Of a stretch of 64,000 bases of DNA, positions 26,804 to 48,626 are shown one piece after another. Position numbers and translations under genes: made by a program. Positions within the stretch are counted from its first letter, which is position 1, and every line of letters starts with the position of its first letter. The notes beneath the pieces were generated by a model. It was not told where the DNA came from. It did no database searches and saw only the letters and a program-made list of their open reading frames with translations. This stretch comes from Phaeacidiphilus oryzae TH49. GTDB lineage: Bacteria > Actinomycetota > Actinomycetes > Streptomycetales > Streptomycetaceae. The stretch is from the NCBI RefSeq assembly GCF_000744815.1, contig NZ_JQMQ01000005.1, positions 3,046,055-3,110,054 on the forward strand. The letters are read 5' to 3'.

Positions 26804-26852
26804 GGTGGAGCTGAGGGGATTTGAACCCCTGACCCCCTCGATGCGAACGAGG
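26804..26852 (-). other. attL: 49-bp core repeat (tRNA-Ala 3' fragment)
   Basis: Identical over 49 bases to 48551-48599. It contains the anticodon arm, T arm and 3' acceptor strand of tRNA-Ala but no 5' half, so it is not a functional tRNA. This is the expected product of site-specific integration into the 3' end of a tRNA gene. Confidence 0.92.
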
Positions 26853-38802: not shown

Positions 38803-39492
38803 ATGCTTCCGATACACGACCTGAACGCGCTGCTCGCCCAGGTCGCCCCGCACATGTACACCGACGCCTACGACCTGCTCCCGCCCCTGAACGGGGTGCT
38901 TCTGGAGACCGACGCGAGCCACTTGTACGCGGTCGCCACCGACCGCTACAGCTTCGCCATCGCCCGCACCCGCCCCGCCCGGGAGCGCGGCGCCATACCT
39001 GCGGCTCAGCGCTGGCGGGCCCTGCTCAGCCCAGCCGACCTGCGCGCCCTGCGCACCATGCGGCCCTTGGCCGCGGAGGAGCCCGCGGAGTTGGACTACC
39101 GCCCCGGCCGGCAGTTGGAGATCCGCATCGGCGAGCAGACGCTGCGCACTGCGGATCGCTCGGAGAAGGCCGAACGGTTCCCCAACTGGCGCTCCCTGCT
39201 CGCCCAGACGCTGGAGCGCGAGCCGGAGCTGCCCGACGACCTGGCCCTGAACCCGACCTACCTCGCCCGCTGGTCCAAGGGCATCCCCCGCCAGGACCGG
39301 TACGTGCCGCTGACCGTGTGGGCCACCGGCGCCGGCAAGCCCATCGTCTTCGCCCGCGGCGAAGACTTCATCGGCCTACAGATGCCCGTCACCCGGGAAC
39401 CCTCCGACGACCAGCCCACCGGCCGCGAAGCCGTGCGCCACGCCTGGGCCGCCGACGCGACCGCCGCCGAGCCCCACCGAGCAGCCGCCTGA
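38803..39492 (+). CDS. DnaN-like (sliding clamp-related) protein
   Basis: 229-aa protein that resembles parts of the DNA polymerase III beta clamp: PLNGVLLETDASHLYAVATD (~28-47) matches the clamp strand after the first helix, and PIVFARGEDFIGLQMPV (~183-199) matches the last strands of DnaN (the L-x-MP end). At 229 aa it is about two thirds of DnaN's usual ~370 aa, so one or more of the three clamp domains is reduced. It may serve as an element-encoded clamp or decoy during replication; the role is inferred. Start ATG 38803. Confidence 0.6.
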   Translation: MLPIHDLNALLAQVAPHMYTDAYDLLPPLNGVLLETDASHLYAVATDRYSFAIARTRPARERGAIPAAQRWRALLSPADLRALRTMRPLAAEEPAELDYRPGRQLEIRIGEQTLRTADRSEKAERFPNWRSLLAQTLEREPELPDDLALNPTYLARWSKGIPRQDRYVPLTVWATGAGKPIVFARGEDFIGLQMPVTREPSDDQPTGREAVRHAWAADATAAEPHRAAA

Positions 39493-42832: not shown

Positions 42833-42880
42833 GCCGGGAATCTACGCCACCCCACCGACAACACGCAGAAGGTGAAGCCG

Positions 42881-43765
42881 TTGCCTGAAATTCTGTTCCT
42901 GGCCTTGGAGTTAGCGAGCGCTGGATTGCCAGTGCTGCCACTGGGAGCGCAAAAGCGGCCCGTGGCCAACTGCCCGGCCTGTGCCCACATGGCCTGCGGG
43001 GGCCGTCCGAACATGCGCGCCGCCGGGCCGTGCACCTGCCCTGCTCCCTGCCACGGCTGGGCAGCCGCCACCAAAGATCCCGTTGGGCTGACCCATCCGG
43101 CCTGGCGCGCAGCGTGGCGGCGGGCCGTGGCAGTCGGGTACTACCCCGGCGGAGCCGGGGTGACCGTGGTGGACCTGGACAGCCCCGCAGCCCTCGACTG
43201 GGCCCGCACGACCCTGCCGGCCACCCGCACGGTACCCACCACCCGCGGCCAGCACTGGATCTACCGCGGTACCTGCGACTCCGCCAACGCAGTACAGCCC
43301 GGGGTGGACATCAAATCCCATTCCCAGTACGCCCGCTGGCTCGGTCCCGGAACCGGCCCCCTGGCCGACCTACCGGCCGCCATCCCTGCCCTGCTCCATC
43401 AGGGCAGGAAAGAAGCCACCCCGCCGCCGGGCGCGGGGGTGGCCTCTTCACCGCGACCGGCCGGGAGTTGGGCTGCGGAAGCCGCCGCCGGTTGCCGTCA
43501 CACCCCCGGCTACCTGCATACGGGGCTGGAGCGCGGCATGCGCAAGATCCGGGCCTGTGCCGAGTCCGGCGCCGGCTCGCAGACCTTCGGTGTCGCCCGA
43601 TTCCTGGCCGCCCAACACACACGTTGCCCCGGCCCCTGCCCCCTGGACGAGATCGGGGCGCAGCTCGTGGCCGCCGCCGGCTCGGTCGGTGTCCCCACCG
43701 AGTACGCCGAGCGCGCCGTCGCCAACGGCTTCGCCCGCGCCCTGTCCGCGGCCATGCCCGCCTGA
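42881..43765 (+). CDS. Bifunctional primase-polymerase (prim-pol) replication protein
   Basis: 294-aa protein of the AEP prim-pol family. A Cys-rich segment near the start (CPACAHMACGG, CTCPAPCHGW) may bind zinc. The catalytic strand GAGVTVVDLDSPAAL supplies the Asp pair, and GVDIKSHSQYARWLGPGTGP is characteristic of this family. Start is TTG 42881 with AGAAGG eight bases before it; GTG 42872 is possible but lacks a ribosome site. With the following DUF3631 ATPase it defines the prim-pol AICE replication class. Confidence 0.8.
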   Translation: MPEILFLALELASAGLPVLPLGAQKRPVANCPACAHMACGGRPNMRAAGPCTCPAPCHGWAAATKDPVGLTHPAWRAAWRRAVAVGYYPGGAGVTVVDLDSPAALDWARTTLPATRTVPTTRGQHWIYRGTCDSANAVQPGVDIKSHSQYARWLGPGTGPLADLPAAIPALLHQGRKEATPPPGAGVASSPRPAGSWAAEAAAGCRHTPGYLHTGLERGMRKIRACAESGAGSQTFGVARFLAAQHTRCPGPCPLDEIGAQLVAAAGSVGVPTEYAERAVANGFARALSAAMPA

Positions 43766-43794: not shown

Positions 43795-43923
43795 ATGACA
43801 CCACCCACCCTCCACAGGCCCCTTCCCCGAGCCGCCGAGCAGTACGGCCCGGCGGCGCCGAGTCGCAGTTCGCCCCGGCTCTTCCACATCAACATCCGCG
43901 CGACGGAAGGTGCAGCCGCATGA
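43795..43923 (+). CDS. Tiny hypothetical protein
   Basis: 42-codon frame starting at ATG 43795 with a strong GAGGAGG site; its stop overlaps the ATG of the DUF3631 gene (ATGA). Pro/Arg/Ser-rich with no domain. It may be a translational-coupling leader peptide for the replication ATPase. Confidence 0.5.
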   Translation: MTPPTLHRPLPRAAEQYGPAAPSRSSPRLFHINIRATEGAAA

Positions 43924-45191
43924 GCGACCAGACCCCCACTCCGCAGGGCCAGCCGCCCGGTACGGCCGAGGACGGCGCCGCCCTGCTGGACGAAGTCGAA
44001 GCCCACCACCGGCGGTTCAACGTCTTCCCCAGCGAAGCGGCCTACGTGGCCGTGACGCTGTGGGACGCCCACGCCCACCTCATGGACTGCTTCGAGGCCA
44101 CCGCCCGACTGGCGTTCCTCTCGCCCGAGCCCGGGAGCGGCAAGACCCGAGCCCTGGAGATCGTGGACACGCTGGTGCCACGGTCGATGTTCACCGTGGG
44201 CATCAGCGCCTCGGCGCTGTTCCGCTCGGTCTCCGACGGGGAGACCCGGCCCACCGTGCTGTGGGACGAGATCGATACCGTCTTCGGCCCCCAGGCCCTC
44301 GGTAACGAGGATCTGCGCGGCCTGATCAACTCCGGCTACCGCCGAAGCGGAGGGATCTACCGCAGCGTGCGGGAAGGCGAGAACCACCGCGTCATCAAGT
44401 TCCCCGTCTACGCCGCCCTCGCCCTGGCCGGCCTCGGCGACCTGCCCGACACCATCATGAGCCGCGCCGTCATCATCCGTATGCGGCGTCGCGCCCCCAA
44501 TGAGCAGGTGGAACCGTTCCGCCAGCGCATCCACGAGCCCGAAGGCCACGCCCTGCGCGACCGCCTCGCGGACTGGGCAGACAGCGTGCGCGAGAAGGTG
44601 AATGGAGCCTGGCCCGAGCTGCCCGAGGGGGTCAGCGACCGGCCCGCCGACGTCTGGGAGCCGCTGCTCGCCGTCGCCGAGGCCGCTGGCGGGCACTGGC
44701 CCGAGCGGGCCCGGGCCGCCTGCCTGGAGTTGGTCAACGCCGCCAAGGCCAACGACAAGGGCTCCCTCGGCATCCGGCTGCTCTCCGACCTGCGCGACGT
44801 GTTCGACGGCGCCGAGCGGATGACCAGCGTCGCCATCCTCGAACGCCTCTTGGCCATGGACGACGCCCCGTGGGCCGACATGGACGGACGACCGCTCAAC
44901 TCCCGCTCTCTGGCGCGCATGCTCGGGGACTACGTCACCGAGGACAACCAACCGATCAAGCCCCGCAACATCAAGGTCGCCGGCTCGGTCCTCAAGGGCT
45001 ACTACGCCGCCGATCTCGCGGACGCCTGGACGCGCTACTGTCCGCCCCACTCCGAAACGTCCGCTACCTCCGCTACCACCGCTACCGCGCAGGTCAGGCC
45101 CCTGTTTTCGGTAGCGGATGAGGTAGCGGTAGCGGATAGGAATCCCGAATCCGCCCCCGCGAGCGAACCCGACCTCACCCCCACCGGCTGA
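43920..45191 (+). CDS. DUF3631 replication ATPase
   Basis: 423-aa P-loop ATPase. Walker A at G72-S-G-K75-T76 (PEPGSGKTRALE), Walker B at VLWDEID with D116/E117, an arginine-rich IIRMRRR segment (~180-186), and the DUF3631 C-terminal domain (~195-385; SLARMLGDYVTEDNQPIKPR). In AICEs this helicase-like protein works with prim-pol to start replication of the excised circle. The last 40 codons are overprinted on the iteron array, giving a low-complexity TSATSATTATAQ stretch. Start ATG 43920. Confidence 0.82.
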   Translation: MSDQTPTPQGQPPGTAEDGAALLDEVEAHHRRFNVFPSEAAYVAVTLWDAHAHLMDCFEATARLAFLSPEPGSGKTRALEIVDTLVPRSMFTVGISASALFRSVSDGETRPTVLWDEIDTVFGPQALGNEDLRGLINSGYRRSGGIYRSVREGENHRVIKFPVYAALALAGLGDLPDTIMSRAVIIRMRRRAPNEQVEPFRQRIHEPEGHALRDRLADWADSVREKVNGAWPELPEGVSDRPADVWEPLLAVAEAAGGHWPERARAACLELVNAAKANDKGSLGIRLLSDLRDVFDGAERMTSVAILERLLAMDDAPWADMDGRPLNSRSLARMLGDYVTEDNQPIKPRNIKVAGSVLKGYYAADLADAWTRYCPPHSETSATSATTATAQVRPLFSVADEVAVADRNPESAPASEPDLTPTG

Positions 45192-45275
45192 GCCGGGCCA
45201 TCCGCTACCGCTACCTATCCGCTACCAAAAGACAGGCTCTGACCTGCGCCGTAGCGGGTAGCGCACGGTAGCGGA
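45059..45275. repeat. Iteron array in a large inverted repeat, probable replication origin
   Basis: Eleven exact copies of the heptamer CCGCTAC/GTAGCGG and one degenerate copy (45258, ending GC) fall in four groups of three with alternating orientation: CCGCTAC at 45061, 45070, 45079; GTAGCGG at 45111, 45123, 45129; CCGCTAC at 45202, 45208, 45219; GTAGCGG at 45251, 45258 (degenerate), 45268. The halves 45059-45139 and 45198-45275 are inverted complements, best over 45087-45139 and 45198-45249. The left half lies inside the DUF3631 coding sequence. Confidence 0.8.
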
Positions 45276-45304
45276 CATCTGGAAGTACCCAACCCAACAC
45301 CGCG

Positions 45305-45344
45305 AGCGAAGGCCGTCACGCACCTCTGCGTGACGGCCTTCGCT
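45305..45344 (+). terminator. Strong hairpin terminator between replication genes and xis
   Basis: 18-bp perfect stem (beginning AGCGAAGGCCGTCACG) with loop CCTC, followed by CGTTCT. It separates the rep transcript and origin from xis-int, which therefore needs its own promoter or is read from within 45345-45384. Confidence 0.8.
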
Positions 45345-45384
45345 CGTTCTGCGCCCCGCCCATCGATCGGGAGGACGACGAGCA

Positions 45385-45726
45385 GTGACATCAGGATCCG
45401 TTACCCCCGCCCCCGCGCTGCCGCCCGTCTACAGCGCGGCCGAAGTCGCCGCCGCACTCCGTTGCTCGGAGTGGTGGGTAAAGGAGCAGGCCCGGAAAGG
45501 CTGCATCCCCTTCACGAAGCCCGGAGGCACGTACCGGTTCACCGCTGAGCACGTCGCCGAGATCCTGCGGATCTACGAGGGTGGCGCCCCGAGCCTCCCG
45601 GCAGCGCCCGAGAGCACACCGAGGGGCTGGCACAAGGCGAGGCCCGAAGCGATCGAGCCTGTACGCCGGTTGAAGGCCAGGCCGCCGCGCCGAACGCCCA
45701 AGAACCGAGCCCAGTCCGCAGCATGA
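45385..45726 (+). CDS. xis: Excisionase (Xis), MerR-type HTH
   Basis: 113-aa protein starting at GTG 45385. Residues ~14-62 form a MerR/HTH_17-type winged helix (YSAAEVAAALRCSEWWVKEQ, then IPFTKPGGTYRFTAEHVAEI) as in AICE excisionases; a basic Pro/Arg tail follows. It lies 59 bases before the integrase gene. It would direct the integrase toward excision by bending the att DNA. Confidence 0.85.
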   Translation: MTSGSVTPAPALPPVYSAAEVAAALRCSEWWVKEQARKGCIPFTKPGGTYRFTAEHVAEILRIYEGGAPSLPAAPESTPRGWHKARPEAIEPVRRLKARPPRRTPKNRAQSAA

Positions 45727-45785
45727 ATCGCTGCCCACCCGGCCTGCCGCCGGGCGGGCAGCAATAACTCAAGAGGGAGAGACAG

Positions 45786-47297
45786 TTGGGGTTCGCCGAG
45801 AAGCGCGGGGACTACTACCGGGCGCGGTTCTGGATCGCTCCCGGGAAGCTCCGCACAGTCGTTGACGAGTACGGACGGACCATCAAGTTCAAGCGCAAGG
45901 CGGAAGCTGCCAAGGTCGCCAACGACATTGAGGCGAAGGTTCGAGCAGGTACGTGGCGAGACCCTGCGGCCGGGCGGATCACCTTCGGTGCCTTCGTGGA
46001 CCGCTGGTTCGGGATGCAGGATCTGGCCGTGTCCACGATGGAGAACTACAAGACGCACATCGAGTCGCACTTGCTCCCGGCCTTCGAAAACCAGGCGCTC
46101 GGCGACATCCAACCGAAGGATGTCGCAGCCTGGCGGAAGGCGAAGCGGGACGCCGGCTATGCCGAGGGGAGCATCAAGACCTGGCGCGGCACCCTGCATC
46201 TGATCTTCGAAGATGCCATGGACGAAGGACTCATCCCCTCGAACCCCGCCTCTGTGCGGAGGGGCAGGGGAAAGCGGGCCGGGCGGTCGCGCCACCGTGC
46301 ACCGGAGAAGGCCGTAACGGACTCGCTCGGCATCCTGCACATTGCCGAGCGGGCCGCCCTGCTCTCCGGCCGGGATGACGAGTTCGTGCTGACGGTCCTC
46401 GCCGGGTACACCGGCATGCGCTGGGGCGAAGTCGTTGGGCTGGAACCCTTCTACACGCGCCGGGAGGCCGTCCGGATCGAGTGGCAGCTCTACGAACTCG
46501 ACTCCGGCAAGCTGCACCGATGCCCGCCCAAGGAGGACTCCTACCGGGACATCGATCTGCCCGAATGGCTCGCCGAACTGCTGGCTGGACACATCGCTCG
46601 GACTCAGCCGAAGCCCTGCGCCTGCCATAGGCAGGCGTACGCGTTCCGCGGGCTCGGTACTCCGAAGGGCCCAGGCGCTGCCGCGGGCCCCCGAGTGGCC
46701 GACGTCGCCCGGCTGGCCGGGGTATCCGCCGGCACCGTCTCGAACCTGCTCAACCGGCCGGAGCAGGTGTCCGAGCGCAGCAGGGCCAAGGTCGCTCAAG
46801 CGATGGAGGAGCTGGGCTACCTCCCCGGCGGTCCGCCGGCCGCGAGCGCCGCGCACTGGCGCCGGAGCGGGTTCGCGCAGCAGGTGTTCCAACCTGCCGC
46901 CACGGGGTGGTTCCCGAGGAAGGCGCCACGGGAAGCCTGCCCCGTCCCGCTGAGGGCCGAGCCGTGGCCGGGGACGCCCCTCAGCGGACGGAACTCCCCG
47001 GGGAGGGCCAACGCATGCTGGCTGCCCATCGCTCGGGGGCTCACCCCGCACGGCCTTCGCCATACGCACAAGACGGTCATGCAGGAACTCGGCACGCCGC
47101 AGAAGCTCCAGGACGAGCGGATGGGACACTTGGACGGCTCAGTCCAGGGACGGTACTCCCACGTCACCACCAGCATGCGCCAACGGCTGCTGAGCGACCT
47201 GACAGGACTCTGGGAGGCCGCGTTGACGGCTCGCAAAGAGCTGTCTCCCCGGTCACCAGTCGGGATACTGGACACTCTGCTGACTATCCGTCAGTAG
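45786..47297 (+). CDS. int: Tyrosine integrase with an internal LacI-type HTH
   Basis: 503-aa site-specific recombinase, start TTG 45786 with GAGGGAGAG upstream. An AP2-like/SAM-like arm and core-binding domain spans ~1-180. Catalytic residues: R212 (YTGMRWGEV), H422-x-x-R425 (HGLRHTH), H448 (MGHLDG) and nucleophile Y457 (GRYSHV). Between R212 and H422 lie about 210 residues, far more than the ~130 usual, because residues ~300-346 hold a complete LacI-family HTH (VADVARLAGVSAGTVSNLLN, then RAKVAQAMEELGYLP). Acts on the tRNA-Ala att sites at the element ends. Confidence 0.9.
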   Translation: MGFAEKRGDYYRARFWIAPGKLRTVVDEYGRTIKFKRKAEAAKVANDIEAKVRAGTWRDPAAGRITFGAFVDRWFGMQDLAVSTMENYKTHIESHLLPAFENQALGDIQPKDVAAWRKAKRDAGYAEGSIKTWRGTLHLIFEDAMDEGLIPSNPASVRRGRGKRAGRSRHRAPEKAVTDSLGILHIAERAALLSGRDDEFVLTVLAGYTGMRWGEVVGLEPFYTRREAVRIEWQLYELDSGKLHRCPPKEDSYRDIDLPEWLAELLAGHIARTQPKPCACHRQAYAFRGLGTPKGPGAAAGPRVADVARLAGVSAGTVSNLLNRPEQVSERSRAKVAQAMEELGYLPGGPPAASAAHWRRSGFAQQVFQPAATGWFPRKAPREACPVPLRAEPWPGTPLSGRNSPGRANACWLPIARGLTPHGLRHTHKTVMQELGTPQKLQDERMGHLDGSVQGRYSHVTTSMRQRLLSDLTGLWEAALTARKELSPRSPVGILDTLLTIRQ

Positions 47298-48549: not shown

Positions 48550-48626
48550 TGGTGGAGCTGAGGGGATTTGAACCCCTGACCCCCTCGATGCGAACGAGGT
48601 GCGCTACCGGACTGCGCTACAGCCCC
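48550..48626 (-). tRNA. tRNA-Ala (anticodon CGC), attR target
   Basis: 77 bases including CCA. Acceptor GGGGCTG pairs with CAGCTCC (one G-U), D arm GCGCAGTCCGGTAGCGC, anticodon stem CCTCG/CGAGG with loop TTCGCAT (anticodon CGC, reads GCG), T arm GGGGTTCAAATCCCC. CCA is encoded at 48552-48550. The 3' half (48551-48599) comes from the element. Confidence 0.95.
48551..48599 (-). other. attR: 49-bp core repeat inside tRNA-Ala
   Basis: Exact copy of 26804-26852. The first differing bases are 48600 (T, against A at 26853) and 48550 (T, against G at 26803), which defines the maximal core. Confidence 0.92.

Follow-up and report, generated by a model that had tools for sequence, protein, structure and literature searches.

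A candidate iteron origin at the end of a DUF3631 gene in an AICE of Phaeacidiphilus oryzae TH49

An array of short repeats at the end of a DUF3631 gene is very probably the replication origin of the AICE that carries it, once this is excised: an iteron origin, for which the DUF3631 protein would be the initiator. An iteron origin had been proposed at this place in an earlier note made from the same 64,000 nucleotides of P. oryzae TH49 (the window), and the proposal is supported, at the level of sequence comparison, by the conservation of the array, its position, its switching together with a predicted winged helix, and its occurrence in two circular extrachromosomal elements.

The element and its putative initiator

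The array sits inside a 21.7-kb tRNA-Ala AICE bounded by 49-bp att repeats (Table 1), which carries an FtsK-like gene, SSB, prim-pol, DUF3631, an Xis-like gene and a tyrosine integrase. The features by which AICEs are recognised (int, xis, rep, FtsK-like tra and tRNA att repeats) were all found, the tra match lying below Pfam's cut-off. Both the array and the DUF3631 gene occur once in the genome, and the DUF3631 domain is present in 213 of the 391 genomes of the same order that were searched. The integrase (45786-47297) has a LacI-type helix-turn-helix (residues 305-347, E 1.4e-16) inserted between its two recognised domains, and the gene at 38803-39492, with the SSB gene further on, weakly resembles the DNA polymerase III beta clamp, its E value of 4.5e-4 not reaching Pfam's cut-off.

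In the window DUF3631 is preceded by prim-pol, and tblastn places prim-pol likewise in most of 58 loci. When this prim-pol type was searched against Pfam, the proteins of the window and of locus L002 were both without a match; relatives from L004, L023 and L033, 62-65% identical to the window's, match PF09250 at 1e-9 to 1e-10. A structure prediction for the divergent protein was too poor to use (mean pLDDT 49.5).

In Pfam searches up to E 5, the DUF3631 protein matched DUF3631 and, weakly, AAA_16; no match was obtained to DUF927 (Cch, SaPIbov1 Rep), to D5/Primase_Cterm (Cch2, SaPI5 Rep) or to the iteron-plasmid initiator families Rep_1/Rep_3. The AlphaFold2 model (51 sequences, mean pLDDT 70.1) consists of an AAA+ core, poorly modelled at residues 119-180, and a well-predicted C-terminal winged helix (residues 283-375, numbered from the codon at 43917), which finishes 19 bases before the first iteron. 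Foldseek gave weak matches (best E 1.6e-3, none at or below 1e-3). In a second fold comparison all 50 neighbours listed were MCM-family chains, the best reaching Z 12.3 (237 residues, 4.0 A). The 50 include no SaPI or Cch structure, which is not evidence that such neighbours are absent. The model predicts an MCM-like AAA+ helicase core, a feature shared with initiator helicases of SaPI/SCCmec type, and the protein is probably an initiator helicase.

Organisation of the array

The array (45061-45274) consists of GTAGCGG heptamers in four triplets that alternate in direction, and a position count bears out the 11 exact copies and one degenerate copy announced in the earlier note. The whole window holds 26 copies, against 8.7 expected and a number reached in 0 of 100 dinucleotide shuffles, and 11 of them are packed into 214 bp. 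In the outer left triplet both spacings between heptamers are 9 bp, as also in relatives, and the inner left one has 12 and 6 bp; measured between starts, outer and inner iterons are separated by 32 bp across the core in either half.

Table 1. Position of the array, of its parts and of the surrounding features in the window
Feature	Coordinates	Strand	Remarks
Distal att repeat, 49 bp	26804..26852	+	Marks AICE end
Divergent prim-pol gene	42872..43765	+	Without own Pfam match; placed through relatives
DUF3631 (RepAM) AAA+ gene	43920..45191	+	Pfam PF12307, E 7.6e-65; model and fold comparison
Codons of predicted C-terminal winged helix	44763..45041	+	Model
Residues 351 and 358	Codons 44967-44969, 44988-44990	+	Inside predicted winged helix
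Outer left iteron triplet	45061..45085	-	Exact starts 45061, 45070, 45079; coding (SATSATTAT)
Left core box GCAGGTCAG	45089..45097	+	Sequence scan
Inner left iteron triplet	45111..45135	+	Exact starts 45111, 45123, 45129; coding
Inner right iteron triplet	45202..45225	-	Exact starts 45202, 45208, 45219; non-coding
Right core box CTGACCTGC	45239..45247	-	11 bp before first outer right iteron
Outer right iteron triplet	45251..45274	+	Exact starts 45251, 45268; degenerate GTAGCGC 45258-45264
Proximal att repeat, 49 bp	48551..48599	+	Inside tRNA-Ala 48550-48626 (-); marks AICE end

Such an array might also belong to a rolling-circle origin, in which the iterons would do no more than position the DUF3631/RepAM protein for nicking at a nearby site. 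In its cited part, PMC3218068 indeed predicts RepAM proteins to be rolling-circle initiators with pC194-like nick sites; however, no rolling-circle Rep family was matched by Pfam profiles up to E 5, the model is MCM-like and the layout of the array is mirror-symmetric. The rolling-circle prediction suits this anatomy poorly, and we regard a rolling-circle origin as very unlikely.

Conservation of the array and exchange of its neighbours

A protein-similarity scan yielded 56 loci, a plasmid collection three records and a phage collection two; the 57 loci analysed, close and moderately distant, are 53 from the scan, the window and the three plasmid records. An array was scored when at least four exact copies of one heptamer, both strands being used, clustered in 260 bp where the DUF3631 domain ends. 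By this measure 56 of the 57 loci carry an array, in which the heptamer occurs 4 to 15 times, and one (L055) has none; among the controls, two of 336 shuffles and two of 112 upstream stretches reached four copies, and none exceeded four. The same design, which the earlier note had suggested looking for in other prim-pol AICEs, is present there. Among 55 further DUF3631 loci, 28 passed the exact-word test and 27, many of them partial or distant domains, failed it.

Two of the arrays lie on complete circular extrachromosomal records, NZ_CP108827.1 (13.5 kb) and NZ_CP108973.1 (14.3 kb), the circular elements of Streptomyces sp. NBC_00859 and S. longwoodensis NBC_00735, which encode an integrase, a helix-turn-helix gene, DUF3631, prim-pol and FtsK/TraB; each has 13 copies in about 1.1 kb at the DUF3631 gene end. 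The Amycolatopsis locus L053 has, beside a first array of GCCGTAC at the gene end, a second one of 12 CGGTAAC copies, 235-391 bases past the DAWxRYC codon.

The genes around the array vary. Prim-pol is of two types, which cross the iteron classes described below and separate the sister initiators L002 and L003; Tra types vary within one DUF3631 clade with the same iterons (tb60 in L028, tb61 in L034 and L061); and of 58 loci, the window among them, 5 have the window's Xis and 12 its Int, yet the array stays. By these comparisons, prim-pol, Tra, Xis and Int types appear to be exchanged independently of the array.

This bears on two other functions that the array might have. It could be mainly an operator for control of the rep or the xis-int genes, either by the DUF3631 protein or by some other regulator: it precedes xis, and replication initiators often regulate their own genes too. 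Against this, the array is placed at the 3' end of rep, a scan of 44900-45500 that covers sigma-70-type promoters only gave no match, and the downstream genes change while the array stays. A regulatory side role may exist, but as the main function it has little to recommend it. It could also be a transfer (clt/TRS-like) site of the FtsK-like Tra or an excision site of Xis/Int, since xis and int follow closely downstream and the element has a tra gene as well. We rejected these sites, because the genes in question are swapped while the array persists; the repeat type does not track the Tra type, which differs within one clade and iteron class, and such a function seems highly improbable.

Iteron classes and the winged helix

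The iterons of an array change class together, array-wide, to CCGCTAC, CCGCCAC, CCGTAAC, or CCGCAAC and CCGCCAC mixed at set positions, and two elements of different class (L003 and L007) were found on one Kitasatospora contig. On a DUF3631 tree computed without the overprinted tail, 10 changes of class label are needed for 56 loci.

In 51 close loci, residue 358 splits the classes fully (V in 28 of 28; T or F in 22 of 22; A in L007) and residue 351 nearly so; both lie in the predicted winged helix, and they are two among many columns that differ between classes, class and phylogeny being entangled. L007, of class CCGTAAC, has 6 of its 20 unique residues at 351-358 (hypergeometric p 3.7e-7 for a stretch chosen afterwards), and other loci have at most three in any eight-residue stretch. 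L008 differs from all four of its sisters at 17 positions, among them 351G and 358T, which are absent from all 28 CCGCTAC proteins and are the majority residues of the other class; its count is not unusual, as 9 of the 28 CCGCTAC loci have one to three other-class residues elsewhere, the window three. If L008 acquired its winged helix and array jointly by recombination, the same link between iteron and winged helix would result. As judged from the aligned relatives, changes of iteron class appear to coincide with residues 351 and 358, and the comparison suggests that the winged helix is the part of the DUF3631 protein that reads the iterons.

In a test for incompatibility, avoidance of the same class by co-resident elements was not significant: 2 of 27 pairs share a class (L141/L142 in genome G164 and L163/L164 in G304) against an expected 0.164, P 0.067. 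The sample was a selection of 54 loci, five of them unclassified, from 26 genomes with at least two DUF3631 matches, leaving out for example G230; class assignment is rough in one group, and avoidance might also arise from shared integration sites.

Coding overlap and symmetry of the halves

The DUF3631 stop codon is at 45189-45191, which places six of the 11 exact copies inside the coding sequence. When the codons of the gene tail were redrawn synonymously 20,000 times, at most three of these six copies were obtained (mean 0.16). Among the 51 close loci, of which the window is one, 15 read the outer iterons in frame 0, 34 in frame 1 and two in frame 2, and the gene extends over the whole left half in 35, over the outer iterons only in 15 and over none of it in one. 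Because relatives use three frames or end the gene before most of the array, selection acts on the array as DNA, overprinting being incidental, and a peptide-driven origin of the repeats was rejected on these grounds and on the redraws. The physical locking of gene and origin claimed in the earlier note thus describes the window, where the left half is coding, but does not hold as a rule. In L026 the DUF3631 frame runs on uninterrupted through the array, for 1647 nt, and its end resembles an integrase C-terminus.

The two halves, of 77 and 76 nt, are an inverted duplication with small indels: in a gapped alignment, 69 of 72 aligned columns are identical, with nine gap columns. The near-perfect arms of about 80 bp that had been described are valid only if such indels are allowed, because the longest exact ungapped arms measure 17 bp, 62 nt apart, and the longest ungapped pair 41 bp at 80%. 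The large cruciform also envisaged there is correspondingly weak. Outside the iterons, the identity of the gapped halves is 0.94 in the window and 0.55-0.90 in other loci, and a cruciform as a conserved function was rejected, the halves of relatives being less alike than the window's. That a repetitive protein tail (SATSAT...VADVAD) or a cruciform explains the pattern, the heptamers not being protein sites, is the least probable reading: the left half is coding in the window and the halves are complementary, but the same repeats recur in the non-coding right half, and the frames, gene ends, redraws and lower complementarity of relatives speak against it.

No Rfam match was found in 44500-46000. 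A perfect 20-bp hairpin with a 4-nt loop (45303-45346), possibly a terminator, lies between the array and xis.

An inverted core box

The outer triplets enclose an inverted pair, GCAGGTCAG and CTGACCTGC, which is absent from the earlier note. At a distance of 11 bp from the outer iterons, 32 of the 57 loci have a box CNGGTCA/TGACCNG on the left side and at least 45 have it on the right; the same box is found in DUF3631 clades with other iterons (TGCCGTC, TCCGTCC, AC(C/T)CGTC). The inverted pair GCAGGTCAG/CTGACC(A/T)G occurs in 82 of 152 distinct regions, in 0 of 112 upstream stretches and in no shuffles; by iteron group the counts are 35/69, 12/24, 12/13, 20/21 and 1/3, and 2/22 for regions without a group. 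Any box was present, in the same order, in 65, 24, 12, 20 and 1 regions and in 10 without a group; of the 112 upstream stretches 26 contained one, as did 3 to 14% of the shuffles.

In the four large iteron groups the left box is mostly 11, 22, 12 and 13 bp from the iterons, and in three of them the right box is at 11, 12 and 13 bp; for the TGCCGTC group the right spacing was not recovered in the 152-region scan. Most inverted pairs are 73 bp apart in two of the groups. A search for the pair alone in 245 genomes, outside whose range the window's own pair falls (150 bp apart), gave 77 places among the matches listed, compared with 24 for the reversed pattern, and by hand count 26 of these 77 are at most 1 kb from a DUF3631 domain of the 391-genome search. 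A stretch that starts with GCAGGTCAG(A/G)AGGGG(T/C)G and has a hairpin-like body recurs in several Streptomyces-family genomes (e.g., G031, G069, G103, G108, G157, G159, G206); it is not among the pair places matched to DUF3631.

Proposed mechanism and implications

We propose that the C-terminal winged helix of the DUF3631 protein would bind the heptamers, that the MCM-like AAA+ core would assemble at each half of the array, and that two oppositely facing complexes would melt and unwind the region, on whose opened strands the adjoining prim-pol would prime. The core box beside the outer iterons might serve in melting or priming, or as the site of a common factor; initiators and origins would be paired through the heptamer sequence, and the repeats inside the gene end would be a tolerated coding by-product. 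The loading of two initiator complexes, favoured already in the earlier note, fits the mirror-symmetric layout and the SaPI precedent; as drawn by analogy it stays a conjecture, and direction, stoichiometry, melting and priming at the array are likewise inferred.

To the fuller reading we give an even chance: a two-tier DUF3631/RepAM origin, with variable iterons, array-wide and read around residues 351-358, plus a near-invariant inverted GCAGGTCAG pair, would be served by two MCM-like assemblies together with prim-pol instead of a rolling-circle mechanism, and elements would fall into specificity groups according to their iteron code. If true, DUF3631, a domain of unknown function, gains one as an origin-reading initiator helicase, the rolling-circle replication assumed for RepAM AICEs becomes directly testable, and the predicted specificity code (residues 351 and 358 versus iteron) could be checked by swaps. 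DUF3631 elements could also yield a family of small replicons for actinomycete vectors. In the literature searched no description of the array was found, although an earlier one may exist in work outside its scope such as the original pMEA300 papers, and the name DUF3631 appeared there in PMC3218068 only.

Comparison with known systems

DUF3631 corresponds to the RepAM family, and 12 of 40 prim-pol AICEs have an adjacent repAM gene, according to the part of PMC3218068 cited here; for these elements (pMEA300 type) that part predicts a rolling-circle initiator and names no iterons. For other prim-pol families, PMC5862659 (cited in part) had already noted MCM-like helicases in bacterial integrative plasmids, and winged helices that might read the origin. 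In plasmid RA3, oriV was mapped experimentally to the 3' end of the initiator gene and the downstream repeats (PMC9455977, in the portion considered); RA3 is a different kind of plasmid, with long repeats, and is likened to the window by origin position, not by protein family.

The closest parallels are two staphylococcal helicases, SaPI Rep and SCCmec Cch2. In each, the C-terminal domain binds short repeats that follow directly 3' of its own gene; SaPI Rep apparently acts as two hexamers and has a primase in the same module, and CCPol-MP primes at the Cch2 repeat site in vitro (all from the excerpted text of PMC7581432). The DUF3631 loci share with them the order of genes and origin, with repeats directly downstream of the helicase gene (56 of 57 loci) and partly overlapping its end, and a primase encoded beside the helicase (prim-pol; PF09250 in relatives). 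Because the same parts stand in a like order, DUF3631 assembly would be expected at both halves of the origin. Unlike SaPI Rep, the window's helicase belongs to DUF3631, not to DUF927 or D5/Primase_Cterm, and unlike the SaPI Rep origins its array has alternating heptamer triplets, an extra inverted core box and a part within the gene. The putative origin of SCCmec Cch2, in the same excerpt, has three short direct AAGTG repeats and goes with an A-family polymerase primase, whereas the window has an archaeo-eukaryotic prim-pol. By analogy, the window's replicon would work like the SaPI Rep and Cch2 origins, with a helicase family that is distinct by sequence.
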